DNA from: a virus
Virus record (IMG/VR): IMGVR_UViG_3300027759_000404
Span: 1-24,542 of that record
Strand: one strand, 5' to 3'
DNA length: 24,542 bases
The notes under the pieces were generated by a model. That model was not told the DNA's origin. It made no database searches and saw only the letters and a program-made list of their open reading frames with translations. Below, in pieces: positions 2-22,870 of this stretch. Both the position numbers and the translations under genes were made by a program. The stretch's first letter is position 1. The number at the start of each line of letters is the position of its first letter.

Positions 2-601
2 GATGAAGTAAAAAATAATCTAGGTCTTTTTGATGAGTATGATATTAAAGACGGTGAGACACCTGAACTTGTTGCTGATAAGTTCTACAATAATTCCGAG
101 CTTCACTGGTTAGTGTTACACTACAATGAAATTATTGACCCGCGATTTGACTGGCCTTTAGATACTAACAATCTTAATAGACAGGTTGCAGGTAAATATA
201 CCGATGTAAATGCTACCCATCATTTTGAAGATGCCAATGGCAATTACACCAATGGTAATGCTTATATTTTATCTTCAAATGCATTTACCAATTTTAGCGT
301 TAATGATGTAATTACCAATAACACAAATAACGGGGTTGGTTATATTACCCAAAAAAATAGTAGTTCTAATGTAAGGGTAACTATTACAGCGGGTGGGTTT
401 AAAACTGGTGATCAGATATTAAAGTCTTCTAATACCAGCAACAGAGCTAATATTACCAGCACAGTAATCCTATCTGGAACTCCCGTTACTAATTTTACCT
501 TTGAAGATGAAATTAATGAATCCAAACGTAGAATTAAAATATTAAAAGCCTCTTATGTAGATGCAGTTGTAAATGACTTTAAAAAGAAGTTAGGTGAATA
601 A
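2..601 (+). CDS. 53: Baseplate wedge subunit gp53-like, 5' partial
   Basis: The reading frame is open from base 2, so the gene begins before the window; 199 residues are visible. GTG at 113 could look like a start, but the codons before it encode a good gp53 pattern (PELVADKFYNNSELHW), so it is internal. The family hallmark is this 'P..vAdkfY.....HW' stretch followed by 'YNEIIDPRFDWPL'. In T4, gp53 is a wedge protein that helps join the six wedges around the hub. The central part, roughly bases 230-480, is rich in Asn, Thr and Ser and reads like a small beta-rich insertion; the end returns to a charged helix-like tail. The stop overlaps the next start (TAATG at 599-603), which suggests translational coupling. 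The identification rests on motif recall, not on an alignment. Confidence 0.88.
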   Translation, partial: DEVKNNLGLFDEYDIKDGETPELVADKFYNNSELHWLVLHYNEIIDPRFDWPLDTNNLNRQVAGKYTDVNATHHFEDANGNYTNGNAYILSSNAFTNFSVNDVITNNTNNGVGYITQKNSSSNVRVTITAGGFKTGDQILKSSNTSNRANITSTVILSGTPVTNFTFEDEINESKRRIKILKASYVDAVVNDFKKKLGE

Positions 602-1977
602 TGATTGGTGAACAAGGTCTTCAACGTGCTGGTGAAGTACGAATTGAACAACTCAAACTTATTAATTCGAGTGATGAGGTAATTGATTTATCTGAATTTA
701 TTGTTGAGTTGAATTTATATGAAGACTTGTTTAAGAATTATCTTCACGGTAACCTGGTGTTAACGGATAGTAGAAATTTAATTGACAAGTATAATATCCA
801 CGGTGAAGAATTTCTTAATGTCAAACTAAGAACCCCTTCATTTCCAGATTCTGAAATTATTGAAAAAACATTTAGAGTATTTAAACTATCAGATAGAACC
901 ATTGTAAGAGATAAAAATACACAAAACTTTGTTCTACATTTTATTTCCATAGAGTTTTTTTACGATGTCTCACTACCATTATTTGCCCCATTTGAGGGAA
1001 CAGTAACTGATATTGCAGGAAGAATTTTTTCTGACTTCCTAGCTACTTCTCGTAATTTTAATGTATCAGAAACAAATAATGAAATTAAAGAAGACCTTAA
1101 GCCAACAGAATTAATTGTTATAAACGAAGCATCAAATAAGATAAAATTTATATCACCTGGTTGGTCGCCGCTTAAATGCATAAATTGGTTAGCCTCTAAA
1201 GCTATACCTAAAGATGGTGTTGCTAAAAACTTTATATTTTTTGAGTCAAGCAAAAACTTTTATTTTGGTACGTTAGAAAATTTGTTTAGAGATGCACATG
1301 AAAATAAAAATTACCTGGGTAGATACTTAATCTCTGCATCCAATGTTCGTGAAGACCAATCATCTCAAAATGTAAGTAGAGAAATGTTTTTAGCTAAAGA
1401 GGTAGAAATGGTTGAGACCACAGACTACATTAAAAACTATACTAATGGGTATCTAGGAAATAGGTTAGTATATCTAGACGTTTTTAATAAAGAATATCAA
1501 CTCATTGACTATGATCATACATTAAATTACGAAAAGCAATTTCATTCTTCTGGAAAAGGAGAAGAAGCTAAACCTGTATTCAATAAAGATACATTTAGAA
1601 ACTTTGCAACTAATATAAGTTTTTATCCAAAGAATCCAAAACTATTTAATGATTACCCAGACAACATAAGTGAGAAGATGGGTGAGATATACGGTAATCG
1701 TTTATCTAGTATGTTAGAATTAACTAACATAAAAATGAATATGACTGTACCAGGTAGAACAGATGCAGAGGTTGGTAGAATAATATATTTTGAATACCCG
1801 TCCATGGGCGCAAAAGATGAAACAGATTCAGGTTCGTCCGCTCAAGATAAATTATATTCAGGTTTTTATATTATTACAGCCATTCATCATAAAGTAAATA
1901 AACTTGAGCACTCTATGACAATGGAAGTTATTAAAGATTCGTTATACGTTGATAAAGAAAGTACCTATAAGGCTTAA
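601..1977 (+). CDS. 27: Baseplate hub protein, gp27-like
   Basis: This 458-residue protein lies between gp53 and the gp5-like protein, as expected for a central hub component. Residues 40-70 (YEDLFKNYLHG, then LVLTDSRNLIDKYNIHGEE) match the shape of the first tail-tube-like domain of T4 gp27, where a short loop, an 'l.f.Ds..i' strand and a 'G.E.i.i....' strand occur. The C-terminal part has the 'MTVPGRTDAEVGRIIYFEYP' stretch, then 'SGFYIITAIHHKVNKLEHSM', typical of hub proteins of this class (second barrel, GpD/VgrG-like). T4 gp27 is 391 residues, so this one is somewhat longer. Known role of the family: a trimeric adaptor between the hexameric tube and the trimeric gp5 spike. Start ATG overlaps the gp53 stop. 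Two nucleotides separate its stop from the next ATG at 1980. Confidence 0.75.
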   Translation: MIGEQGLQRAGEVRIEQLKLINSSDEVIDLSEFIVELNLYEDLFKNYLHGNLVLTDSRNLIDKYNIHGEEFLNVKLRTPSFPDSEIIEKTFRVFKLSDRTIVRDKNTQNFVLHFISIEFFYDVSLPLFAPFEGTVTDIAGRIFSDFLATSRNFNVSETNNEIKEDLKPTELIVINEASNKIKFISPGWSPLKCINWLASKAIPKDGVAKNFIFFESSKNFYFGTLENLFRDAHENKNYLGRYLISASNVREDQSSQNVSREMFLAKEVEMVETTDYIKNYTNGYLGNRLVYLDVFNKEYQLIDYDHTLNYEKQFHSSGKGEEAKPVFNKDTFRNFATNISFYPKNPKLFNDYPDNISEKMGEIYGNRLSSMLELTNIKMNMTVPGRTDAEVGRIIYFEYPSMGAKDETDSGSSAQDKLYSGFYIITAIHHKVNKLEHSMTMEVIKDSLYVDKESTYKA

Positions 1978-1979
1978 TT

Positions 1980-3065
1980 ATGCAGAGAATTTTTAACAAA
2001 GATGGGTTTAATTGGTGGATTGGTGTTGTAGAGGATCGCATGGATCCTGAAAAGATGGGTCGATGCAGGGTACGTATTTACGGTTATCATACCGATAGTA
2101 AGATAATTCTACCAACTAAAGATCTACCCTGGGCAACACCTATACAGCCAATTACCTCAGCTGCAATTTCTGGTATTGGTTCATCCCCACTAGGTCCTGT
2201 TGAAGGTACCTGGGTTATTGGGTTCTTCCTCGACGGTGAAGATATGCAGCAACCTGCTATCTTTGGAACCATTGCAACTAAAGCGGCTAAGAAAGCGTTT
2301 TCTGTACAAGAAGAAACACCATCTGTAACTAATCCTAACGACGGAGTTCTTAAAGATAGCTCTGGTAATCCAGTAGTAGACGGCCAAGGTGAACCAGTTC
2401 GCGCAGGTACCCCTTCTGTGGAAGGATGGGAGTTAGGTCAGACATCTGAAAAGTATGAATCAGGTGGCAAGGGGGCGGGTACCATTAATGCATACAGTGG
2501 TGCTGCCGGGGGTGACCTTGGAGGGGCATCTTATGGAACATATCAGTTAGCCTCTTTCCTTCCTGCTATAATGACTACCGGTAAAGCAAGACCTTCGGCT
2601 AAAAATTCACCTGTAATTCAGTTTTTAAATACTTCTAAGTTCAAAGATAAATTTGCAGGGTTAGAGCCCGCCACAGCCGCCTTTGATGCTAAGTGGACAG
2701 AGATTGCAAGCACTTTCAAAGAAGCGTTTAAAAAAGAACAACACGATTATATTCAGAAAAAGTATTATGACGTTGCTATAGCTAACCTACAACGTCAGGG
2801 CTTAGATATGATAAAATACGGTCCTGCTGTGCAAGATTTAATCTGGTCAGGTGCCGTACAATTTGGTCCTGCTAATACTAGAGCATTTACTGAAACATTA
2901 AGAGGTAAAAGTACTTTAACAGATAAAGATATTGTTACCTTAGTCAGTGAATGGAAAATTAACAATGTAGATACGTTATTTAAATCCAGCTCAGACTCTA
3001 TTAGAGCTGGGGTTAAATCACGCTACCAATCCGAGAAACAAGCCTTACTGAGTTTAATTAAATAA
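1980..3065 (+). CDS. 5: gp5-type OB domain fused to a lysozyme-like hydrolase
   Basis: This is a 361-residue spike-base protein. Residues 1-98 form the gp5/VgrG-type OB domain: 'WWIGVVEDRMDPEKMGRCRV', then 'LPWATPIQPITSA', 'GPVEGTWVIGFFLDGEDMQQ' and 'PAIFGTI'. A low-complexity linker follows (about 100-150). The C-terminal half is not T4-lysozyme-like. It has Y159-E160-S-G-G, then S184-Y-G-T-Y-Q-L190, and later 'EQHDYIQKKYYD' and 'AVQDLIWSGAVQFGP'. From memory, this set of motifs recurs in a hydrolase-like module of some VgrG-related and phage proteins. The E-S-G-G ... G-x-Y-Q order resembles soluble lytic transglycosylases, making E160 a candidate catalytic acid. I infer a cell-wall glycan-cutting role at the tail tip. 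The protein lacks the beta-helix of full-length gp5, which is encoded by the next gene; the stop and next start overlap (TAATG). Confidence 0.8.
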   Translation: MQRIFNKDGFNWWIGVVEDRMDPEKMGRCRVRIYGYHTDSKIILPTKDLPWATPIQPITSAAISGIGSSPLGPVEGTWVIGFFLDGEDMQQPAIFGTIATKAAKKAFSVQEETPSVTNPNDGVLKDSSGNPVVDGQGEPVRAGTPSVEGWELGQTSEKYESGGKGAGTINAYSGAAGGDLGGASYGTYQLASFLPAIMTTGKARPSAKNSPVIQFLNTSKFKDKFAGLEPATAAFDAKWTEIASTFKEAFKKEQHDYIQKKYYDVAIANLQRQGLDMIKYGPAVQDLIWSGAVQFGPANTRAFTETLRGKSTLTDKDIVTLVSEWKINNVDTLFKSSSDSIRAGVKSRYQSEKQALLSLIK

Positions 3066-5407
3066 TGGATCCACTAATTACAAAACAAATTCAAGGGGTA
3101 CTTGAGAACAATATCTTTAACAAGATTATTGCTCTTAACCTTAACATTCCTAGCCCTGTTCTAAGAGCTATAATATCAAGAGTGGCCGAGGTTGGGGCTG
3201 TTGATATTGTTAAGCAAGTTACCTTGAGCTCAAACAAACAACTTACTGATATACCTAAAAATATTATTGGGTCAGTTAACCCTGTTAACATTACTAACAG
3301 TAATAACAGTCCAGCTCAAATTAGTAATAACATTGATGGTATTATTCAACAGCAATTACTACTACAAACAACGGATAAGATTGTATCTAAACTACAGTCT
3401 CAATTAAGACTCTCATTACCTACTGATAAATTAGGTATTATTAATTTTGATAATTTAGCTGCAAGCCTGATACAAGGTATTACACCGACTGTTGGTAAAA
3501 CAATCTCTACTGCTGTTAATAGCTTTACTGATTCTATTTTCAATAAAGGTCAATTACCTAAAATAACTTCTAACAGTATTGAGTCATTTTACAGCTCGTT
3601 ATCCCCTGAAGAGGCATTAGCTAAAACAGATGAGGTATTTGTATCTAGTGCTGCTAATAGTGCACTAACAGAAGCCAAAAGTTTTGATATTAATTCAACA
3701 ACGAATGCTGAGAAGCTAGAAGTATTAGATAAAGGCTTTACAGACCCTAATGCAAATTACCCTACAAAAGAATATGCTGGGATTTCTGAGACTAATAAAC
3801 TTGCACAGGGTGATGTTAGAGGTACGGTAGTTCAAGAAAAAAATAATAACCGAATGTTAGGAGCCAAGTTACCGGGTGGTGAAGCTTGGGATGAACCTGA
3901 ATCAGCTTTCCGGGGAGCATATCCTTACAATAAAGTAACCCAGACTGAATCCGGTCATATTATCGAGATGGATGATACACCTGGCTCCGAACGAATTCAC
4001 ATATATCATAAGTCTGGTACCTATGTAGAAATTGATGCAAATGGATCCATGGTAAAGAGAACGAAAGGTTCCTCATATGAAATTATTGATCGAAATGGAA
4101 AAATATCTATCGCAGGCCGCGCAGACATTTCTGTTAACGGTGCTTGTAATATCTTTGTTGGTAATGATGCAAACATCGAAGTCGAAGGCGATGTAAACCT
4201 AACGTGTCATAATGATATTACTGCTATGGCAGGAGGTACTTTGAACCTTTCTGCAACAGAAGAAGTTAACATTACAAGTAGCAATGTTAATATACAGGCT
4301 TACAACCAAATGAATTTAAGTTCTAATGTTCAACTTAATCTTCATTCTACTTACAGTGTAAATATGTCTGCAAATGCAAACGTACATATCGATTCTGTAG
4401 ATGTATTTCAAAATGCTACTACTAACTATAACCAGGCAGATAATATTCATATTAAATCTAACGAAGGTATCTTTGTAGAGTCTGATACTGATATTAATAT
4501 AAACGCTGGCGGTGGGTTAAATAACCAGGCAGGTGGTGCAATTAGTAATCAAGCCGGTGGTGAATTTAGTGCCGATGGTAGCGCTGTACATTTAAATTCT
4601 GGTAACTCAGTAGATGCAGAAGTCGCTGAACCTAGTGAAGCAGCCGTATTAGCAGGTATTTCAAATATCGGTATTATGTCTGGTCGTAAAGATATTTCTA
4701 GTAACGATAAAGATGATCCTTTAGTGCTTTCCCTTGCTGATAGTAGATCCATTGAATTAGAAGAAGAGACTCAAACTTCTGATGATTTCAATACCCAAAA
4801 GAATTTAATTATAAGTGAGGGTTTTGCTAATGCAGCAGACTTAAATGAAACCCCGATAGCTACAGATAGTGCATCAGTACAATCTGAGCAAGGTAATTTT
4901 GTTGAACCAGATCCTAAGTTGAAGTCCGTAACTCAACTACCAGGTAATTATAATTTATCACCTAACTTTACTGTTGAGATGTTATCAAGTAAAGCTGCAG
5001 TTTCAAGAGACCCAATTCGTGGTCATACAGGTGCAACGTACGGAGAAATTGTTTTTAATCTTCAAGCAGTTGCTCTTAACATCTTAGAACCTGTTAAGAA
5101 GATTTATCCTAATATGTTTGTTACTTCTGCATTTAGAGACCCCGGTAATAGTTCTAATGCTAAGACCTCCCAACACCCATTAGGGCAAGGGGTTGATATT
5201 CAGTTCAAAGGTATTACTAAAAAAGAATATTACGATATTGCAGTTAAATTAGCCAAGGTACTTAAGTACGATCAGTTAATTTTAGAGTACTGTAACTATA
5301 CAAACAACCCTTGGATACATGTATCTTATTCTGTTAAGAATAGAAGTCAGGTACTAACATTCTTCAACCATAAAACTCACTCTCAGGGTCTGACTCAGCT
5401 AGCATAA
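3065..5407 (+). CDS. gp5-type beta-helix spike with C-terminal M15 peptidase
   Basis: This 780-residue protein has three visible parts. Residues 1-250 are of unknown fold, rich in Ile, Asn and Gln. Residues about 260-480 match the C-terminal spike of T4 gp5: 'AWDEPESAFRGAYPYNKV', 'ESGHIIEMDDTPGSERIHIY', 'HKSGTYVEIDANGSMV', then alternating short strands (DISVNGACNIFV, NIEVEGDVNLTC, TLNLSATEEVNI) expected of a trimeric beta-helix. After a Ser/Asp/Gln linker, residues 625-780 form a peptidase M15-like domain: R691 in TSAFRDP, S702-Q-H704-P-L-G-Q-G-V-D711, E741 in LILEY and H752 in WIHVSY. H704, D711 and H752 are the expected zinc ligands and E741 the likely catalytic acid. M15 enzymes cut peptidoglycan stem peptides. 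I infer that the spike carries a peptidase near its tip. ATG overlaps the upstream stop; its own stop overlaps the next ATG. Confidence 0.88.
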   Translation: MDPLITKQIQGVLENNIFNKIIALNLNIPSPVLRAIISRVAEVGAVDIVKQVTLSSNKQLTDIPKNIIGSVNPVNITNSNNSPAQISNNIDGIIQQQLLLQTTDKIVSKLQSQLRLSLPTDKLGIINFDNLAASLIQGITPTVGKTISTAVNSFTDSIFNKGQLPKITSNSIESFYSSLSPEEALAKTDEVFVSSAANSALTEAKSFDINSTTNAEKLEVLDKGFTDPNANYPTKEYAGISETNKLAQGDVRGTVVQEKNNNRMLGAKLPGGEAWDEPESAFRGAYPYNKVTQTESGHIIEMDDTPGSERIHIYHKSGTYVEIDANGSMVKRTKGSSYEIIDRNGKISIAGRADISVNGACNIFVGNDANIEVEGDVNLTCHNDITAMAGGTLNLSATEEVNITSSNVNIQAYNQMNLSSNVQLNLHSTYSVNMSANANVHIDSVDVFQNATTNYNQADNIHIKSNEGIFVESDTDININAGGGLNNQAGGAISNQAGGEFSADGSAVHLNSGNSVDAEVAEPSEAAVLAGISNIGIMSGRKDISSNDKDDPLVLSLADSRSIELEEETQTSDDFNTQKNLIISEGFANAADLNETPIATDSASVQSEQGNFVEPDPKLKSVTQLPGNYNLSPNFTVEMLSSKAAVSRDPIRGHTGATYGEIVFNLQAVALNILEPVKKIYPNMFVTSAFRDPGNSSNAKTSQHPLGQGVDIQFKGITKKEYYDIAVKLAKVLKYDQLILEYCNYTNNPWIHVSYSVKNRSQVLTFFNHKTHSQGLTQLA

Positions 5408-6030
5408 TGGCAATAACCCTTTCAAGTTCTGGAGGAATTTCTGACCCGTATGTTGGATTAGACGGTGTTACAGAGGAATATACATTTCCTAATGGCGCTC
5501 TTGAGGGTGTTATCTATACAGATACTATAACTGTTACGCCGACTCCTTATGCATCAATAGTCAGCTCTTCTGTAACCTCGAGTACTTCATCAACAATTAA
5601 TACCGCTCAAAGCAGTGTTTCGGGTAATAGTACTTTAAATATTACATACGAAGCATTTAACGCTCCCACTAACACATTTGGTGGTATAAGTATCTCTGCA
5701 TCCCCTACCCTCATAACTTTTACAGGTACAATGGATGGTATTTTTAGTGATAAGTATATGAAATATATAGATCACAATAACAGTAATATAAGTGTTACTG
5801 TTACGAGTTTTGGAGATGTACCATCTCAAAATGCAGAAATATATTTGTATAAACCATCATTTATGAAGTATGTATTTACAACATATAAAATTACAGTGGT
5901 TTACTTAGATGAATTTTTAGTACCAGTTACTGTCGAATATACAGTTTTAAAAAGATTATTAAATGATTGGACAGCAGGTAAAAACGCATTAAAAGCAAAG
6001 GTAGCAGCACAATATGCCGGCGGTAACTAG
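5407..6030 (+). CDS. Unknown protein between spike and PAAR genes
   Basis: I do not recognise this 207-residue protein. It begins MAITLSSSGGISDPYVG and has a Ser/Thr/Val-rich N-terminal half (for example SIVSSSVTSSTSSTIN, residues about 50-65), consistent with exposed beta strands or a flexible linker. The second half is more hydrophobic and aromatic (YLYKPSFMKYVFTTYKIT, VVYLDEFLVPVTVEYTVL) and ends in a short basic helix-like tail (LLNDWTAGKNALKAKVAAQY). No signal peptide or membrane helix is obvious. Its ATG overlaps the spike stop (TAATG) and its last 17 bases overlap the PAAR gene, so it is embedded in the spike operon and is probably a virion component, perhaps bound to the spike or PAAR tip. 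That role is inferred from position only. Confidence 0.6.
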   Translation: MAITLSSSGGISDPYVGLDGVTEEYTFPNGALEGVIYTDTITVTPTPYASIVSSSVTSSTSSTINTAQSSVSGNSTLNITYEAFNAPTNTFGGISISASPTLITFTGTMDGIFSDKYMKYIDHNNSNISVTVTSFGDVPSQNAEIYLYKPSFMKYVFTTYKITVVYLDEFLVPVTVEYTVLKRLLNDWTAGKNALKAKVAAQYAGGN

Positions 6031-6316
6031 AGTAGGAGATCTGTCAACAGGGCACGAAGGCTATCCCCCTTCTGCAGTTACTATTCCAAATAACAGCACA
6101 GTTTATGCTAACGGAATTTTAGTTGCTGTACAAGGCGGTAGTTTTGCTACTCACGTTAAACCCAAAAGTCCTCCACACGTTGAAGGCGCCGATCGAGTTA
6201 TAACAGGAGGAAGCAGTACAGTATTTGTTGAGAGTAAGCCTGTTACTAGAATTGGGGACGATATAGCAGATGGAGATGCAAGCGCACAAGGTTCTCCAAA
6301 TGTCTTTGCGGGATAA
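6014..6316 (+). CDS. PAAR-motif spike tip protein
   Basis: This 100-residue protein has the PAAR layout: an early 'MPAVTRVGDLSTGHEG', a central 'VYANGILVAVQGGSFATHVK', and a closing 'VFVESKPVTRIGDDIADGD...QGSPNVF'. Length is typical of stand-alone PAAR proteins. H14, H47 and H55 are candidates for three of the zinc ligands; no cysteine is present, so the usual fourth Cys ligand must be replaced or absent. PAAR proteins form a small cone that caps the blunt beta-helix end of gp5/VgrG spikes and sharpens the tip used to pierce the outer membrane. Its gene is downstream of the beta-helix spike gene, as expected. The start lies inside the end of the preceding gene, 17 bases before that gene's end. 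Confidence 0.93.
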   Translation: MPAVTRVGDLSTGHEGYPPSAVTIPNNSTVYANGILVAVQGGSFATHVKPKSPPHVEGADRVITGGSSTVFVESKPVTRIGDDIADGDASAQGSPNVFAG

Positions 6317-12792: not shown

Positions 12793-15700
12793 ATGGCGAT
12801 TAATTTTAACACCGATCCGTACTACGATGACTTCAGTGAAAGTAAAGAATTTTACCGTATTCTTTTTAAACCCGGTCGTGCTGTCCAAGCCCGAGAGTTA
12901 ACACAACTACAGACTACCTTACAAAATCAAATCGCTAGATTTGGTCAGAACGTATTTAAAGAGGGTGCAATTGTAATACCCGGTCAGCAAATATTTGATA
13001 ACTTTTATAACTTTGTAAAACTTACTGATAGTTTTAACGGTGTAGTTTCTGATGATATTTTAGCAGACTTAGTAGGCGGTACTGTTGTAGGTCAAACAAC
13101 CGGTGTTACAGCTCGAGTTGTTAACCATACTGTGTCTGAAAGCGGTGACCCATCTACAATTTATGTAAAGTATACTAGTTCAGGTACTGATAAAACAACA
13201 GCAGTATTTGCAGCCGGTGAGTTATTAACTTTTACATATGGTGCAAATAGTACCGCTGTATTGCAAGCTGCTGCTGCCTCAGCTACAGGTAAGGGTGTTG
13301 CGTTTTCAATTGCAGCTGGCGTTATTTTTTGCAAGAATAATTTTGTATACTTTGGAGATGAAACTCATATTGTTTCTAAGTACAGTGATACTCCATCAAA
13401 ATCAGTCGGCTTTTTAGTTACAGAAAGTATTCTTACTTCTGATGATAATGAGACTTTATTAGATCCTGCAGCAGGTTCAAATAACTATTTTGCACCAGGG
13501 GCTGATCGATATTCTATTAGCTTATCTCTTCAATCTAGAACTTTACCGGAGGCTGATACCGTTGATAATAACTATGTAGAGATTTCTAAAATAGAAAACG
13601 GTATTATGATTTATCAGAAGTCCGCTTCTGATTACAACGTTTTAGGAGATGTACTTGCAAGACGTACTTTTGATGAGTCAGGTAACTATACAGTTAAGCC
13701 ATACGGGTTAGAGAATATTGAACACTTAAGAACATCAGCTGCCAGTATTAGAGATGGCTTATATACAGCCAATTCTGGAGGTAATGCCGAGTTATTTGCT
13801 AGTGTAATATCACCCGGTAAAGCTTATGTTTTAGGTTATGAAATTGATAATTTAAAAAGCAAGTATGTTGCAATTCCGAAAGCAAGAGACTTCACAGCAG
13901 TCAATAATAGCACTATCTCTTCCTTAGTAGGTAGCTATGTTACTATAACGGGTCTTTTTTCTGTACCTGATTTAATAACATTAAGTGAAGTAGACTTATA
14001 TAACGGTTATACGGCTACACCAGGTTCACCTGCAGGTACAAAAGTAGGTACTGCAAGAATTAGAGCTATTACTTACATTTCTGGTTCCGGTATGACAGCC
14101 ACATACTCGGCCTACCTGTTTAACATTAAGATGTTAACAGGGTATGCTTTTGATAAAGATGTAAGACAAATTTATTATAACAACAGTGGGTTTGTTGACT
14201 CAACGGCCAACGTTATTCCAACTCTAGTTTCTATTACAGGTACAGTTACAACTACTAACGCAAGTAACGTTATTACTGGTGTTGGTACAAAATTTAATAC
14301 CGATCTTCGAAGTGGTGATTATATTACTATTAATGGTAATATTTCTGCTATTAGTAATGTTGTAAGTGATACTACTGTATATGCAAGCGCTAATTTAATC
14401 GGTAATATTTCTGGCATTAGCGCATCTAAGCATACATCTGTAATTACAAATAACCCATCAGAAAATGATGCAACCTATTTGTTTGAGTTCCCTTACCCTA
14501 TAATTAAAACTGTCGATCCAACAGATACTGAAACGTCTTATTATACAAGACGTGTATACGATAGAACGTTAAGTGGGGGCAATGTAGCTATTACTGCCGG
14601 AACAGATGAGGTGTTTGCGCCTTATTCTGTAACTAATTATATTGTTGTAGATAAATCAGATGGTTCATATATTCCTTTAACTGGTAATGTTACTAGATCT
14701 GGATCACCAACAGGTAAGACTGTTACCTTCTCATTAGGTAGCGGGTACGGGACACACGATGTTCGTATTGTTTCTACTATCGCAAAGACTAATTCTGCTG
14801 CAAATAAAAAGACCAAGACCCTTGTTAGCGGGTCTACTATAGACTTTACAAGTAATACAACAGCTACTGCAACTGTTCTTTCATTAGGACAAGCAGATAT
14901 CTATGTTCTATCTAACGTTAGAATGTCAGCTAATGCTTTTGGAACTGCTTTCAGTACTTCTAATTCTGTAGATATAACTTCACGTTATACTTTAGATAAC
15001 GGGCAAAAGACCTCTCACTACGATCTCGGAAGTGTTAAATTACTACCAGGTCAACCTGCACCAACCGGACCGGTTCGCGTAACATTTAGTTACTTTACAC
15101 ATTCAAGTGGAGATTTTTTCTCTGTAGACTCATACGGTGATATTGAATATATCGATATACCAACATTTACATCTGGTTCTAAAACTTATAATTTAAGAGA
15201 CTGTTTAGATTTTAGACCGAGAATCGATACTAATGGTACAACGTTTACAGGCCCATCTGAGTTTTTAGATCAAACAGTTGATATTTTAACTGATTATAGT
15301 TATTACTTACCCAGAACAGATAAAGTAGTTTTAAATTCTTCTGGAGCTATGCAAGTAGTTCAAGGTGTAAGCTCTCTCACACCTCAAGAGCCTGCGACCC
15401 CGCAAAACTCTATGGCGTTGTTTGTGCTTGCTCAAAAGCCATATGTGTTTAATGTTAAAAAAGATATTGATGTTACTGTTATAGATAACAGACGCTTTAC
15501 AATGAGAGATATTGGTAAACTTGAAAGCCGTATTAAGACATTAGAATACTATACTACCCTATCTTTATTAGAGACCGATACTTCTTTATATCAAATTAAA
15601 GACAGTTTAGGTTTCGATAGATTTAAAAATGGTTTCGTTGTAGATAATTTTACAGGTCACAAAGTTGGTAACCCATTAGATTCAGATTATAAAATATCTA

Positions 15701-17727
15701 TGGACTTCCAAAAAGGTATTTTAAGACCTTCTTACAATCAAACGAATTTAAGATTAAAAGAGATTGCAACCACCACCGCACAGCGTACCTCTAATAATTA
15801 CGCTATGACGGGTAATATAGTCTCGCTGGCATATACTAGTAATGTATTTGTGCAAAGCAATGCAGCATCCAGAATTGAAAATATAAACCCATTCAGTGTT
15901 ATTTCATTTACAGGATCTGTTGTATTAGATCCACCGTCTGACGTTTGGTTTGATACTGAAAAATTACCTGAAATACATATTGATAGAGAAGGTAACTACA
16001 GTACGTTGCTAGCTTCTGCCCAGTCTACAGGTAAGTATGGTACTGTTTGGGGTTCATGGCAGACCAACTACTACGGTGGTGGTTACGTAGACGAAAGACA
16101 GGGTACAACTTACGAAGTTAAAGAAACTATCGATACAACAACTAATAATGATGTTGTATTAAGTAATACTGTTATTCCTAAAATGAGGGATATCAATATT
16201 AAGTTTACTGGTACAGGTTTAAAGCCTAATACTAAAGTACAAGTGTATTTTGATGAGTATAAAGTAACAGATTTTGTAACCGGTACATTTACAGCTAATG
16301 CTGCTGCACAAGCTAACGCAGTCCTTGGCGCTTATCTTATTAATAAAGGTAATGTATATACAGATCATACCGGTACGGTTTCCGGTTCATTCTTCTATGA
16401 TGCATCCCACTTTAACTTCTCAACAGGTGAAAAAGTCTTTAGATTAACTGATTCTCCAACCAATGGTGCAGATAGTGAGACCTCAGCCGAAGCTAAGTTC
16501 AATACATCAGGGCAATTAACTACTTTACAAAATCAAATTGTATCAACTAGAAATGGTTATACAACTGCAGAGGCTGTATTTGATCAGAGAGCGTCATCTT
16601 ATGTACCGCCTCCAGTATATGTTGATTATTATGATCCTCCTGTTTATACAGCACCAGTAGTATCCAGACCGGGGCTAACTTATGCTGACGCAATTTATGG
16701 TGCCTCATTTGGAAGGTTACCAGACCAAGGTGGCGCAGAATTCTGGGCTGCCAGGGGTAACTTTGATATTATTTCTAACGCTGTAAACACTATATCTGAT
16801 GCGGGTAAAACCGTGCTTGCTGGTTTGATGAGCGCTGATGGTACAGGTTGTGATGGAAAATTCGTAGTCGATAATTGGGAGGTTAGAGCTGCAGGGCTTT
16901 CACAAGACGATAAAGCTGCTGCTATTAGTGCCTATAATGCAATTAAGGAAATTACTGCGGCAGGAGCTGTTAATCAAGAATATCTTTATAATAATGGCGC
17001 GCTGACTACGTATACTAATTTTGGATACACAACTGATCAAGCAGCTGCATATAGTGCCGCGCAACTTGCTGTGGTTTTATTAGCCGATGATAAGATACCG
17101 CCAATCACTGCTAATAACCCATACTGGGGTGTGGGAGGTGATTCCGTTCGCTCAGTTGTAGCAGCTATTAATGATAACCCTGATCGTGCAACTGCTAATT
17201 TAGCAGCTACGTCACCTGATGGCCAAAATGTTCCAAGAACCTGTTGGGCTCAAGATCCTTTAGCGCAAACGTTTATTATTTCCGGTAATCCAACTGTACT
17301 AACCGGTGTAGATCTGTTCTTCTATGATACAGATACAACTGCTCCAATGTATATTGAATTACGTACTGTGGTAAATGGCTCACCGTCGCAACAAGTCATC
17401 CCTTTCTCTCGTAGAGCAGTAAGCCCTGAAGAAATTACTACTTCTGATGATGGTTCTGTTGCAACTTATCTTGCATTTGATGGTTTAGTTTATCTAGAAC
17501 CCGGTGAGTATGCATTAGTTCTTTTAACCGGTTCTATCAATTATAAAGTATGGATTTCACAAATTGGTGAAACCGATGTTGCTACTGGTAGAGTAATTAA
17601 TGATCAACCATTCGTTGGTGTGTTATTTAAATCACAAAATGCTTCCTCTTGGGAAGCAAATCAAATCAAGATCTTAAATTTAAAATATACAACGCTGTAT
17701 TCTCTACTACTTCATCAGCTACGGTAG
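12793..17727 (+). CDS. Giant DUF4815-type structural protein, N-terminal 1,644 residues (frameshifted)
   Basis: The start 'MAINFNTDPYYDDFSESKEF', then 'YRILFKPGRAVQARELTQLQ' and 'TTLQNQIARFGQNVFKEGAI' is the signature I associate with DUF4815 phage structural proteins of marine T4-like phages. Visible parts include a 'TGVGTKFNTDLRSGDYITIN' fibre-type module (about residues 490-540), a Pro/Tyr linker (VPPPVYVDYYDPPVY, about 1270-1285), a DUF4214-like motif (LTYADAIYGASFGRLPDQGG, then AEFWAA, around 1295-1320), and a conserved tail-ward domain starting at 'TCWAQDPLAQTFIISG'. The family's C-terminal continuation (SQNASSWEANQ...DLKF) is cut here: after about base 17664 the frame gives unlike residues and stops at 17727, while the expected sequence continues in the -1 frame to 19037. 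Repaired, the protein would be about 2,081 residues. The role is inferred as a large baseplate or fibre-bearing component. Confidence 0.85.
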   Translation: MAINFNTDPYYDDFSESKEFYRILFKPGRAVQARELTQLQTTLQNQIARFGQNVFKEGAIVIPGQQIFDNFYNFVKLTDSFNGVVSDDILADLVGGTVVGQTTGVTARVVNHTVSESGDPSTIYVKYTSSGTDKTTAVFAAGELLTFTYGANSTAVLQAAAASATGKGVAFSIAAGVIFCKNNFVYFGDETHIVSKYSDTPSKSVGFLVTESILTSDDNETLLDPAAGSNNYFAPGADRYSISLSLQSRTLPEADTVDNNYVEISKIENGIMIYQKSASDYNVLGDVLARRTFDESGNYTVKPYGLENIEHLRTSAASIRDGLYTANSGGNAELFASVISPGKAYVLGYEIDNLKSKYVAIPKARDFTAVNNSTISSLVGSYVTITGLFSVPDLITLSEVDLYNGYTATPGSPAGTKVGTARIRAITYISGSGMTATYSAYLFNIKMLTGYAFDKDVRQIYYNNSGFVDSTANVIPTLVSITGTVTTTNASNVITGVGTKFNTDLRSGDYITINGNISAISNVVSDTTVYASANLIGNISGISASKHTSVITNNPSENDATYLFEFPYPIIKTVDPTDTETSYYTRRVYDRTLSGGNVAITAGTDEVFAPYSVTNYIVVDKSDGSYIPLTGNVTRSGSPTGKTVTFSLGSGYGTHDVRIVSTIAKTNSAANKKTKTLVSGSTIDFTSNTTATATVLSLGQADIYVLSNVRMSANAFGTAFSTSNSVDITSRYTLDNGQKTSHYDLGSVKLLPGQPAPTGPVRVTFSYFTHSSGDFFSVDSYGDIEYIDIPTFTSGSKTYNLRDCLDFRPRIDTNGTTFTGPSEFLDQTVDILTDYSYYLPRTDKVVLNSSGAMQVVQGVSSLTPQEPATPQNSMALFVLAQKPYVFNVKKDIDVTVIDNRRFTMRDIGKLESRIKTLEYYTTLSLLETDTSLYQIKDSLGFDRFKNGFVVDNFTGHKVGNPLDSDYKISMDFQKGILRPSYNQTNLRLKEIATTTAQRTSNNYAMTGNIVSLAYTSNVFVQSNAASRIENINPFSVISFTGSVVLDPPSDVWFDTEKLPEIHIDREGNYSTLLASAQSTGKYGTVWGSWQTNYYGGGYVDERQGTTYEVKETIDTTTNNDVVLSNTVIPKMRDINIKFTGTGLKPNTKVQVYFDEYKVTDFVTGTFTANAAAQANAVLGAYLINKGNVYTDHTGTVSGSFFYDASHFNFSTGEKVFRLTDSPTNGADSETSAEAKFNTSGQLTTLQNQIVSTRNGYTTAEAVFDQRASSYVPPPVYVDYYDPPVYTAPVVSRPGLTYADAIYGASFGRLPDQGGAEFWAARGNFDIISNAVNTISDAGKTVLAGLMSADGTGCDGKFVVDNWEVRAAGLSQDDKAAAISAYNAIKEITAAGAVNQEYLYNNGALTTYTNFGYTTDQAAAYSAAQLAVVLLADDKIPPITANNPYWGVGGDSVRSVVAAINDNPDRATANLAATSPDGQNVPRTCWAQDPLAQTFIISGNPTVLTGVDLFFYDTDTTAPMYIELRTVVNGSPSQQVIPFSRRAVSPEEITTSDDGSVATYLAFDGLVYLEPGEYALVLLTGSINYKVWISQIGETDVATGRVINDQPFVGVLFKSQNASSWEANQIKILNLKYTTLYSLLLHQLR
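17631..17727 (+). other. Frameshift window in the giant structural gene
   Basis: The -1 frame has a stop at 17628-17630 and the upstream frame stops at 17725-17727, so the frame change must lie between. A -1 change near 17664 yields SWEANQ then NQDLKFKIYN, the most family-like join. The stretch 17657-17669 holds a short tandem repeat (CAAATCAAATCAA), a plausible place for a one-base indel. A slippery heptamer A-AAT-TTA lies at 17676-17682 in the correct phase for programmed -1 slippage, but slipping there would replace DLKF with other residues. Confidence 0.7.
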
Positions 17728-19037
17728 ATTTTGAAGTAGATGCAAAAGATTATCAACTAGCCCTGCTTGATACAGATCCTTTAGAATTCTACCCAGGTAG
17801 CCGAGTTTTAAAAGTACTCCATTCAAATAATGGTTTTGTGAATGGTTCTACAGTTAAACTATACAACGTTCCAGGAAATGGTACATCAATTGCTGTAAAT
17901 AACAGCGGTAATATATACGGTGTTAATGTTCAGACAATTAATAATGTAGAATTTGCAGTATCCAACGTAAGATCTAACTCTTACACTATTATTTTACCTA
18001 CTGCTTCTACCAGCAATACTATAGTTCGCGCTGGTGGTAATGGCATTGTAGCTGAACGCGATTTTCAATACGATGCTGTCTACCCTGCTATTTCTTCACT
18101 TCAGTTCGCAGATACCTCTGCAAGAGTAAGTGTGAAGGCAGTTGATAAAGGATACACCCCTCAATCATCATTTACTGTACTTAATGGTGCAAGTGCATCA
18201 GAGTTGTATACCACTTCTGTATTACCAAGTACAACAAATATTACCAATAACTTATCAGGTGCAAGACCGCTTACACTACGTATAACTCTTGATAATAATA
18301 CGCCTTTCCTTTCACCTATCATAGATATGGAGCAATTATCGGCTGTGTTTATTAGGAATCAGGTCAATAACCCAACTTATGCAACAGAAAATTTAAGCAC
18401 TGATATTGTAACAGTTGCAAGAAATAGTAATATTTCATTTACAAGAGTTTCAGCTGGAACTGGTTATATTAGTATTGTTGCTGCTAATGATAGGGCTAAT
18501 GTATCTGGTATAGTTAAAGGTACAACGGTTACAGTTGCTAACTCATCGGTAAATAGTACCTCATATAGAGTAATAGATGTATTAGATGCTGGTGCTAACA
18601 TTTTAGTTGCAGGGGCTATTACTACTGCTGCTGCGGCCAATGTTATTACGGTTACAAATGGTAGGGCGTTTATTGCTGAAGAAGCTGCAACTGGTGGTTC
18701 TGCTTTAGCAAAGTACATTACAAGACAGGTTGATTTAGTTAACCCATCTACCTCTATTAACTTGAGACTTGATATTGCTAAGCCTGAAAACGCTAATGTT
18801 AAAGTTTACTATAAAGTAAAAACTGTCGGTGAGTCTGCCGATCTTTCAACAAAGGAATATGTTGAATTATCTGGCTTAGTTATTCCAACATCACTTAACG
18901 GTGAGTTCTTTGAAGTTGAAAAACAAATAGATAACATCACTCAGTTTACATCTATTGTGTTTAAGATTGTACTTCTTTCTGATGATTCTGCTGACATTCC
19001 AAAATGTAAGAACTTAAGAGCGATTATGCTGGTATGA
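17649..19037 (+). CDS. C-terminal part of the DUF4815-type protein, in the -1 frame
   Basis: This frame has only a TTG (17649) as a possible start and no clear ribosome-binding site before it, and it begins right where the upstream gene loses its family sequence. Its first residues (NQDLKFKIYNAVFST) continue the 'FKSQNASSWEANQ' of the upstream frame, as I recall for single-polypeptide relatives. The rest is beta-rich: 'SNNGFVNGSTVKLYNVPGNG' and 'NRANVSGIVKGTTVT-like' segments, then 'NLRLDIAKPENANVKVYYKV', 'TKEYVELSGLVIPTSLNG' and a final 'PKCKNLRAIMLV'. I read it as the C-terminal domains of one large protein rather than an independent gene. The stop overlaps the next start (ATGA at 19034-19037). 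Confidence 0.75.
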   Translation: MGSKSNQDLKFKIYNAVFSTTSSATVDFEVDAKDYQLALLDTDPLEFYPGSRVLKVLHSNNGFVNGSTVKLYNVPGNGTSIAVNNSGNIYGVNVQTINNVEFAVSNVRSNSYTIILPTASTSNTIVRAGGNGIVAERDFQYDAVYPAISSLQFADTSARVSVKAVDKGYTPQSSFTVLNGASASELYTTSVLPSTTNITNNLSGARPLTLRITLDNNTPFLSPIIDMEQLSAVFIRNQVNNPTYATENLSTDIVTVARNSNISFTRVSAGTGYISIVAANDRANVSGIVKGTTVTVANSSVNSTSYRVIDVLDAGANILVAGAITTAAAANVITVTNGRAFIAEEAATGGSALAKYITRQVDLVNPSTSINLRLDIAKPENANVKVYYKVKTVGESADLSTKEYVELSGLVIPTSLNGEFFEVEKQIDNITQFTSIVFKIVLLSDDSADIPKCKNLRAIMLV

Positions 19038-20920: not shown

Positions 20921-22870
20921 ATGTCAGGTATACTATCAATGATTGCTGGCGGAACTTATACCGCCAGACCAGGTGCACCAACTATTGGTACAGCAACAGT
21001 ATCTACTATTACAGCATCTGTTCCGTTTACCGCACCTGCAAATAATGGAGGCGCAACGATTACTTCCTACACGGCGACTTCATCCCCGGGTGGTATTACA
21101 GGCGTACTGAATCAAGCCGGTTCAGGTACAATCACAGTGAGCGGGTTGACAGGGGGTACTTCATATACATTTACAGTTACAGCTACTAACTCAATTGGTA
21201 CAGGTCCAGCCAGCGAGGCATCCAATAGTGTTACTGCAGTTGCACCAAGTGGCGCGCGACAATTTACTGTTCCTGGTTCATATTCCTGGATTGCCCCAGC
21301 CGGGGTTACGTCTATTACTGCTGTTGCTGTTGCAGGCGGCGGAGGTGGCGGCTACACTACCGGAGGAGGGGGCGGTGAGTTAAGATATAAAAATAATATA
21401 ACGGTTACACCTGGTACTTCGTATTGCGTTGTGGTTGGTAATGCAGGTACCCAAAACTATGGTGGTTCAGGTTCAGATGGTGGGAATTCAACATTTAATA
21501 CAACAACTTTAGTAGCCACCTCAGGTAAAAAAGGTGGATCCCCCTCCCCAAATACAAAGCGCGGTGGCGTCGGAGGTTCTGGTGGCACAGGTGATGGCGG
21601 TGGTAATGGTGGTAAAGGTGGCGACACTACACCTTGCGTTGGCGCTTATTATGGCGGCGGTGGAGGTGCTGGTGGTTATGCTGGCACAGGTGGTGGAGGT
21701 GCTAGTGGCGATAGCGCTGGGAATGGAGCAAGCGGCAATGGCGGCGGTGGTGGAGGTGCTGGTGCCTTTTACAATGGTCGCTCTGGCGGAGGCGGTGTAG
21801 GTATTCTTGGCCAAGGTTGCAGCGGGGCAGCCGGAACTGGGGGTAACCAGGCTACTAATGGCGGCTTTGGCGGTTCTGGCGGGCAGCAAGGCAGTACTGA
21901 CAGCTGTTCTGGTCCATCTGGCAACGCAGGTGGTGGCAGGTATGGCGGCGGAGGCGGTGGCGGTTCTAGTGATGGACGAGGTGGCTCAGGAGCCATCCGT
22001 ATTATTTGGCCTGGAACAACTCGTTCATTCCCTTCTACATGCGTATCTGCGTCCTATAGTGCATACGGTGATGTTGAGTATACGACTGCAGGTACTTATT
22101 CCTGGGTTGCCCCAGCTGGTGTTTCCAAAGTTTCCGTGGTTGCTGTTGGCTCAGGAGGCGGGTCAAAAACCGCTTCTTATGTATGTTGTGGCTTGTGGGG
22201 CGGCGCAGGAGGCGGAGGCGGCGGTCTCGGTTATATAAACAATAGAACTGTCACCCCTGGAACTAGTTACAATGTTGTTGTGGGTGCAGGAGCTGCCGCT
22301 ACTATTGGTGGAGATTCATACTTCTGTTCTACATCTGTTGTAAAAGGTGGAGGCGGTGGAATTCCATCAGCTTATTATTGCGGCGGCGTTGGGGGAACAT
22401 ACACCGGAACTGGTGGCGGTAACGGAGGAAGCGGTGGCCGTTTGAGCGGAGGCGGCGACTCATTTTCAAGAGCCTCCGGTGCTGGAGGCGCCGGAGGGTA
22501 TGCCGGCTCTGGTGGTAATGGAGGCTCTAAATGTTCATCATGTTCTGGTATAGGTTATGCTGGAGCAGGCGGCGGCGGTGGAGGCGGCGGTCGTTCCAAT
22601 GTAAACGGTACAAGTGGTAGAGGCGGAGGAGGCGGCGGTGTTGGTATATACGGTCAAGGCTGTAACGGTTCTGGAGGAGCAACGGGATCAAATCCTGCTG
22701 GCCCAGGTACTGGTGGATCATGTGGTTCATCCGGTTCTGCTTCTACGCCAGGCGTATACGGTGGGGGTGCTGGAGGCAATGCTAATGCTGCCGGAGCAAT
22801 CGGTGCTGTACGTATTATATGGCCAGGCTGTGCTCGATCATTCCCTTCAACATGTGCTGGTAGATCTTAA
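20921..22870 (+). CDS. FN3 plus double glycine-rich adhesin-like protein
   Basis: This 649-residue protein has an FN3-like domain at residues 17-105 (PGAPTIGTATVSTITASVPF; TVSGLTGGTSYTFTVTATNS) followed by two glycine-rich halves. Each half starts with Y-S-W-[IV]-A-P-A-G-V (121-129 and 393-401), continues with a strand ending in a run of Gly, has [IN]-x-T-V-T-P-G-T-S-Y (160-168; 442-450), a long Gly-rich stretch, and ends with R-I-I-W-P-G-x-x-R-S-F-P-S-T-C (360-374; 631-645). Cysteines are frequent, especially in the second half (VCCG, YYCGG, KCSSCSG, GCNG). Glycine-rich sandwiches of this type are known in T-even-type tail-fibre tip adhesins, and glycine-rich proteins are common near marine phage fibres. 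I infer a receptor-binding or fibre-tip role. The Gly codons make this stretch richer in G than the rest of the window. Confidence 0.8.
   Translation: MSGILSMIAGGTYTARPGAPTIGTATVSTITASVPFTAPANNGGATITSYTATSSPGGITGVLNQAGSGTITVSGLTGGTSYTFTVTATNSIGTGPASEASNSVTAVAPSGARQFTVPGSYSWIAPAGVTSITAVAVAGGGGGGYTTGGGGGELRYKNNITVTPGTSYCVVVGNAGTQNYGGSGSDGGNSTFNTTTLVATSGKKGGSPSPNTKRGGVGGSGGTGDGGGNGGKGGDTTPCVGAYYGGGGGAGGYAGTGGGGASGDSAGNGASGNGGGGGGAGAFYNGRSGGGGVGILGQGCSGAAGTGGNQATNGGFGGSGGQQGSTDSCSGPSGNAGGGRYGGGGGGGSSDGRGGSGAIRIIWPGTTRSFPSTCVSASYSAYGDVEYTTAGTYSWVAPAGVSKVSVVAVGSGGGSKTASYVCCGLWGGAGGGGGGLGYINNRTVTPGTSYNVVVGAGAAATIGGDSYFCSTSVVKGGGGGIPSAYYCGGVGGTYTGTGGGNGGSGGRLSGGGDSFSRASGAGGAGGYAGSGGNGGSKCSSCSGIGYAGAGGGGGGGGRSNVNGTSGRGGGGGGVGIYGQGCNGSGGATGSNPAGPGTGGSCGSSGSASTPGVYGGGAGGNANAAGAIGAVRIIWPGCARSFPSTCAGRS
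21260..22042 (+). repeat. Glycine-rich unit 1 of the adhesin-like protein
   Basis: Residues 114-374 form the first of two units, about 261 residues. It begins QFTVPGSYSWIAPAGV and ends AIRIIWPGTTRSFPSTC. The central part has Gly runs broken by Asn, Ala, Ser and aromatic pairs. Confidence 0.8.
22079..22855 (+). repeat. Glycine-rich unit 2 of the adhesin-like protein
   Basis: Residues 387-645 form the second unit, about 259 residues, nearly the same length as unit 1. It begins YTTAGTYSWVAPAGV and ends AVRIIWPGCARSFPSTC. The shared start and end, and the equal size, point to an internal duplication that has since diverged in the middle. Confidence 0.8.

Follow-up and report, generated by a model that had tools for sequence, protein, structure and literature searches.

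The DNA analysed here is a stretch of 24,542 nucleotides from a virus (IMG/VR record IMGVR_UViG_3300027759_000404, positions 1 to 24,542; hereafter the window), in which two adjacent genes, P1 and P2, probably encode the gp5 central spike of a T4-like phage as two chains, each with a predicted cell-wall enzyme of its own. P1 carries the gp5 OB domain joined to a putative muramidase (MUR), and P2 an N-terminal helical domain (NT2), the end of the OB region, a beta-helix (BH) and a putative M15 metallopeptidase. Relatives were surveyed at 256 loci by scanning with profiles built for this analysis. The features of the two genes are as follows:

1980..3065, + strand: P1, gp5 OB domain and predicted VgrG3-type muramidase domain, 361 amino acids (Pfam, PHROG and PDB sequence matches)
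2100..2297, + strand: P1 residues 41-106, Gp5_OB, profile positions 12-76 (PF06714, E 5.5e-18)
2427..3062, + strand: P1 residues 150-361, predicted muramidase domain (PF21277, E 6e-55; fold match to 4nso)
2457..2459, + strand: Glu160 of P1, putative catalytic acid (in 72 of 78 distinct OB-MUR proteins)
3065..5407, + strand: P2, helical domain, gp5 linker, beta-helix and predicted M15 domain, 780 amino acids (Pfam, PHROG and PDB sequence matches)
3065..3709, + strand: P2 residues 1-215, all-helical N-terminal domain NT2 (predicted helices 3-223)
3722..3856, + strand: P2 residues 220-264, GFTDPNANYP...NKLAQGD, end of the OB region, Gp5_OB positions 77-118 (E 0.0022)
3887..4594, + strand: P2 residues 275-510, gp5C-type trimeric beta-helix (T4 gp5, 9f4a and phrog_430 matches)
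4595..4936, + strand: P2 residues 511-624, linker between helix and enzyme (predicted local distance difference test, pLDDT, below 50 at 510-552; helices 557-593)
4937..5404, + strand: P2 residues 625-780, predicted M15 metallopeptidase domain (phrog_894, E 2.6e-19; fold match to 1LBU)
5174..5320, + strand: putative M15 site, H704 (5174-5176), D711 (5195-5197), E741 (5285-5287) and H752 (5318-5320) (motif, conservation)

The C-terminal half of P1, whose match to a hydrolase fold was one condition of the original prediction, matches the full profile (positions 1-183) of PF21277, T6SS_VgrG3-like_C, over residues 152-353 at 186.5 bits, against a curated cut-off of 27. Its solved relatives by sequence are 4noo and 4nso (E 7e-41), and that of the OB part is T4 gp5. 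Single-chain AlphaFold2 models, built with 33 and 38 family members, were usable for the enzyme domains (pLDDT mostly 75-94), and the predicted fold of P1 residues 149-361 aligns with residues 816-1009 of 4nso, the VgrG3 muramidase, at Z 23.1 and a root-mean-square deviation (rmsd) of 2.6 over 192 residues, with 45% identity between the muramidase domain and VgrG3 over the aligned fold. Next in the structural ranking come GH46 chitosanases at Z 11-14, followed by pesticin at about 9 and T4-type lysozymes at about 8. No T4-type lysozyme lies between the OB domain and the helix, and it is the PF21277 domain on P1 that holds that place. Judged by its sequence, P1 is a gp5 homologue and not a T4-type tail lysozyme, and sequence and model together identify its module as a VgrG3-type, GH46-chitosanase-like muramidase of predicted activity rather than a T4 lysozyme. 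The original prediction, made from the DNA letters, had described a gp5 spike in two genes, each with its own wall enzyme, and on P1 an OB domain joined to a non-T4 lysozyme-like module; the domains are now identified, the arrangement recurs in about 90 virus loci, and the module is refined to the VgrG3 type.

By the ungapped offset of the fold alignment, Glu160 of P1 corresponds to residue 827 of VgrG3 (4nso), which we take to be the catalytic glutamate of that enzyme; no paper naming it as such was found in the open-licence literature. Nineteen residues past Glu160, D179 is conserved in 72 of the 73 rows that bear Glu160 and is likely to be the second acid of the putative muramidase site; together with Q189 and other residues, it is at least 97% conserved among Glu160-bearing OB-MUR proteins. 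According to the literature, VgrG3 cleaves the polysaccharide chains of peptidoglycan (PMC12663445).

The beta-helix is carried by the next gene, as had been proposed: P2 residues 275-371 match residues 376-471 of T4 gp5 (E 1.8e-17), with further matches to the spike 9f4a (E 4.4e-20) and to phrog_430 (E 9e-52). At the other end of the chain, the NT2 domain has no Pfam or PHROG match; we considered a CNOT1-type helical repeat and make no such claim, as the best structural rows (Z about 9) lie in the range for unrelated helical bundles. P2 begins with this conserved domain of its own in relatives, and the domain is missing from P2 of the Methylophilales phage Melnitz. Past the helix and linker, residues 625-780 match the M15 'endolysin' family phrog_894, and the top structural match of the region is the Zn DD-peptidase 1LBU (Z 9.9, rmsd 3.0, 131 residues aligned) in a model of the monomer rather than the trimer, hedgehog-fold relatives appearing in Foldseek at no better than weak E-values. 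The pattern of His/Asp/His Zn ligands plus acid, SxHxxGxxxD ... E ... WxH, is present as H704, D711, E741 and H752, and the quartet is complete in 188 of 191 compared sequences. All of the coordinates and residues singled out beforehand, including E160 and SYGTYQ of P1, lie where the original prediction had put them, and the two profile searches that it had proposed, of P1 residues 150-361 and P2 residues 625-780, returned PF21277 and phrog_894, respectively. We read the C-terminus of P2, from sequence and model, as an M15 fold with the likeness of a wall peptidase and with predicted peptide cleavage. Both conditions under which the original prediction could have failed thus came out in its favour: P1 has its hydrolase fold, and P2, in the monomer model, its M15 fold with the conserved quartet.

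The closest PHROG of the M15 domain is a lysis family, and M15 endolysins are common in phages, so the domain might act at lysis, or as a virion-maturation protease, instead of in entry. We regard this as very improbable, since the domain is covalently attached to the beta-helix, in split and single-chain relatives alike, or to PAAR, and has a wall-peptidase fold, whereas endolysins are normally separate late proteins.

The boundary between the two genes is itself a conserved feature. P1 and P2 share one base in the window (TAATG); an overlap of 1 or 4 nucleotides between the stop of P1 and the start of P2 is seen at 91 of the 99 muramidase-type loci and at 41 of the 45 Melnitz-type loci, which suggests coupled translation of P1 and P2. 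The Gp5_OB profile runs across both chains, its positions 12-76 matching P1 and 77-118 matching P2, and residues 24-76 of Melnitz P2 likewise correspond to positions 71-121 (E 0.00018). Of 106 NT2-BH-M15 proteins, 87 carry the motif of this gp5 segment, as against none of the 114 OB-MUR proteins; GFxDP..YP lies on P2 and is absent from the OB-MUR chains as well as from the Melnitz-type chains that join the OB domain to a VanY-like M15 domain (OB-M15b). In T4 gp5 the alignment places the equivalent segment between OB domain and lysozyme, all on one chain. Purifying selection acts on both genes and in all domains, with ratios of nonsynonymous to synonymous substitution rates (dN/dS) of 0.01-0.23 by domain, and this, together with the recurrence of the architecture in about 90 virus loci, excludes chance as the origin of the two-gene spike. 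An artefactual split of a single gp5 gene in assembly or sequencing would fit the single chains of T4 gp5 and of the relatives Cr30, pf16 and BUCT-ZZ01, and these contigs do show length differences of a single base, for instance in the window's tail gene near position 17,660; however, about 90 loci and four isolated Melnitz genomes have the same boundary, its overlap of 1 or 4 nucleotides being conserved, and P2 starts with its own conserved domain, so that we rule this explanation out and assign it a negligible probability.

Comparison with about 150 related viral sequences separates an exchangeable OB-side position from a constant spike-end one. The window's form, OB-MUR plus NT2-BH-M15, is found whole in 92 loci, 72 with PAAR, 11 with PAAR and a gene for a 207-amino-acid protein, and 9 without PAAR, a few of these loci being the same contig twice; the Melnitz form, OB-M15b plus BH-M15, is whole in 37, its M15b domain scoring just below cut-off as VanY-like (PF02557, E 1e-4) and carrying an invariant SWHN...ID...D.GHF pattern. 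A two-gene form with Phage_lysozyme2 on the OB chain (OB-LYZ2 plus BH-M15) occurs at two loci. Single chains comprise OB-LYZ2-BH-M15 in Cr30, OB-GH19-BH-M15 with a GH19-like domain in Synechococcus phage BUCT-ZZ01, OB-BH-M15 with no detected OB-side enzyme in pf16 and about 20 others, and, also among the surveyed loci, OB-BH in which no enzyme was detected. The phages Milchi, vB_PpuM-Aura, PA5oct and Vibrio phage 1.244 instead carry the M15 region on the PAAR protein, which in PA5oct is annotated as detected by electrospray ionization tandem mass spectrometry (ESI-MS/MS). Wherever this M15 could be assigned to a spike, it lies towards the spike end, carried either by the helix chain or by its cap, and as read from these domain assignments it is constant within this spike class, the OB-side enzyme being exchangeable and sometimes dispensable. 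For the OB-MUR form no isolated carrier was found, none of 50,697 phage records covering 80% of P1. P2 is split into two open reading frames in the single contigs L032, L038, L049, L062 and L068, with the break before M15 in L049 and L032; these interruptions are probably sequence errors. In pf16 gp5 (L003:5611-7140) OB, beta-helix and M15 were the sole domains detected and none of them is glycan-cutting, which corrects the annotation and published description of this protein as a tail lysozyme (PMC5587285).

Six marine OB-MUR proteins, 445-559 amino acids in length and thus longer than P1, are without the Glu160 that the other 72 distinct proteins share:

Glu160-less marine proteins: L113:6580-7917, L114:1639-2976, L115:1651-2985, L119:512-2188, L121:6580-7917, L122:6277-7719

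The five of the six used in a tree form one side of a fully supported branch (the tree being unrooted and its branches long), and because the outside relative Carin-5 carries YESGG, we infer loss of Glu160 rather than gain. Four of the six have Q189 replaced by Glu, by which the acid may have been re-sited. In close pairs (L113 with L115 and L121) their muramidase domain nevertheless evolves at a dN/dS of 0.10-0.12, and this purifying selection implies that something other than the catalytic role of Glu160, or in addition to it, maintains the domain. Such retention, the existence of pf16-type spikes without a detectable OB-side enzyme, and the near-invariance of the M15 residues everywhere would all agree with a spike in which only M15 matters enzymatically, the C-terminal domain of P1 being mainly a structural sleeve round the spike for which catalysis is optional. 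We consider this unlikely, as Glu160 is kept in most of the proteins and D179, Q189 and others are conserved as in an active enzyme, and as both sites are intact in the window.

The surroundings of P1 and P2 are those of a T4-like baseplate gene cluster, which runs from a gp53-like gene through the gp27-like gene, P1, P2, the 207-amino-acid protein and PAAR to gp25-like, gp6-like and further wedge and fibre genes. Two neighbours are candidate partners of the spike:

601..1977, + strand: gp27-like hub/tail protein, predicted partner of the OB domain (phrog_350 tail protein, E 4e-76)
6014..6316, + strand: PAAR tip protein, with its own gene in the window (PF05488, E 5.9e-8; phrog_281, E 2e-24)

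Almost every related locus whose flank is long enough has the gp27-like gene directly 5' of P1, and a shorter form of the PAAR protein, of 81 amino acids, exists among relatives. The 207-amino-acid protein between P2 and PAAR (5407-6030; weak match to phrog_1168) is found only in a minority of relatives. Further downstream, a large tail/fibre gene (phrog_358, 12793-19037) differs in length by one base near 17,660 and so falls into two open reading frames, 12793-17727 and 17649-19037; five related contigs have the frame open at that point, and the break is probably a sequencing or assembly error or a recent mutation. A very glycine-rich protein with a fibronectin-like start (phrog_4474, 20921-22870) is perhaps an adhesin or tail-fibre tip. 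As to the host, a scan of prokaryote genome contigs yielded no relative.

Taken together, sequence and models make it probable that P1 and P2 form the gp5 central spike of a T4-like phage from two translationally coupled chains, in which M15 would lead and the base muramidase follow. Three P1 OB domains would dock under the gp27-like hub, and the GFxDP..YP segment of P2 would complete the OB collar in trans and hold the beta-helix below, with PAAR capping the helix and three M15 domains hanging near the tip on a long linker. Contraction would then drive the spike across the outer membrane, where stem peptides or cross-links would be cleaved first, by the leading M15 enzymes, and glycan strands afterwards, by the base muramidases, which would widen the hole.

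Several points weigh against this reading. The Gp5_OB match of P2 residues 220-264 is weak taken alone, the OB and helix regions are poor in the monomer models, as expected for a monomer of a trimer, and Pfam Peptidase_M15_3 is sub-threshold on the window's P2, at 18.4 bits versus a curated cut-off of 23.2, which the P2 of a homologue (L154) clears at 29.0 bits. The marine proteins without Glu160 imply that muramidase activity is not needed in every relative. Finally, the 114 residues between helix and M15 are partly of low confidence in the model, and M15 could fold back along the helix. The original prediction had M15 after the spike and near its tip: the first part stands, the domain being C-terminal to the helix on P2, and the second is plausible and supported by the homologous M15 on the PAAR tip protein of other phages.

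T4 gp5, which acts with gp27 and the PAAR tip gp5.4, has an OB domain, a glycan-cutting enzyme and a trimeric beta-helix in the same overall order as P1 and P2, but it is one gene, with a T4-type lysozyme and no M15, and its GFxDP..YP equivalent is on the OB chain, in contrast to the helix chain of the window. It is also cleaved between Ser351 and Ala352 to give two chains in the virion, and in the T4 trimer with gp5C lysozyme activity is about one tenth of that of the free form, the site being blocked by linker and helix (PMC3004832). The gene split is therefore less of a departure than it looks. A muramidase attached to the OB domain alone should require no maturation protease to free it from the helix. 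A more tentative proposal, to which we give below even chances, is that the split is a genetic replacement for the gp5 maturation cleavage, P2 completing the OB domain in trans and so leaving the base enzyme a free cartridge (T4-type lysozyme, Phage_lysozyme2, GH19-like, VgrG3-type muramidase, VanY-like M15, none, or a Glu-less copy) while the tip M15 makes the indispensable wall cut.

Closer to the window in layout is the isolated phage Melnitz (OB protein QZI95101.1, baseplate hub QZI95102.1), which shares the split, the early gp5 segment of P2 and the beta-helix, and whose spike-end M15 is 46% identical; it differs in the VanY-like M15 that replaces the muramidase on the OB side and in the lack of the 215-residue helical domain on P2. 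Gp5 of Caulobacter phage Cr30 and Pseudomonas phage pf16 resembles the window in OB, beta-helix and C-terminal M15 (42-48% identity) but is a single chain, with Phage_lysozyme2 between OB and helix in Cr30 and no glycan enzyme detected in pf16. VgrG3, an evolved VgrG of the type VI secretion system (T6SS), also bears a PF21277 muramidase on a gp5-type spike; there the enzyme follows the beta-helix, the position that M15 occupies in the window, where the muramidase hangs from the OB domain instead. The PAAR-M15 tip proteins have a homologous M15 at the spike tip, joined to PAAR rather than to the helix, and no OB-side muramidase was found on the Milchi spike gene. The hub gp15 of the Anabaena myophage A-1(L), with endoglucanase and peptidase activities demonstrated experimentally (PMC10966104), similarly unites glycan- and peptide-cutting domains, in vitro there and predicted here, on one central baseplate component, but on the hub rather than an OB/helix spike and with different domains, so that it lowers the novelty of the function and not of the layout. 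Split gp5 genes are already annotated in P-HM1 and Melnitz, and among full-length structural neighbours in BFVD the first is a protein of an uncultured phage that bears the name Peptidase M15A (74% identity). Within the open-licence literature, no description was found of a split gp5 with two enzymes, of an exchangeable cartridge or of a T4-like spike bearing M15.

The tail lysozyme of a T4-like phage is usually assumed to cut glycan. Our results suggest that a widespread aquatic T4-like group leads with a spike-end peptidase, the glycan enzyme being an exchangeable add-on, and if the split does replace maturation, peptide cutting rather than glycan cutting would be the core wall-breaching activity of this lineage. 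The natural two-gene constructs, together with the enzyme-free (pf16) and Glu160-less relatives, make both the required wall bond and the reason for T4 gp5 cleavage directly testable.

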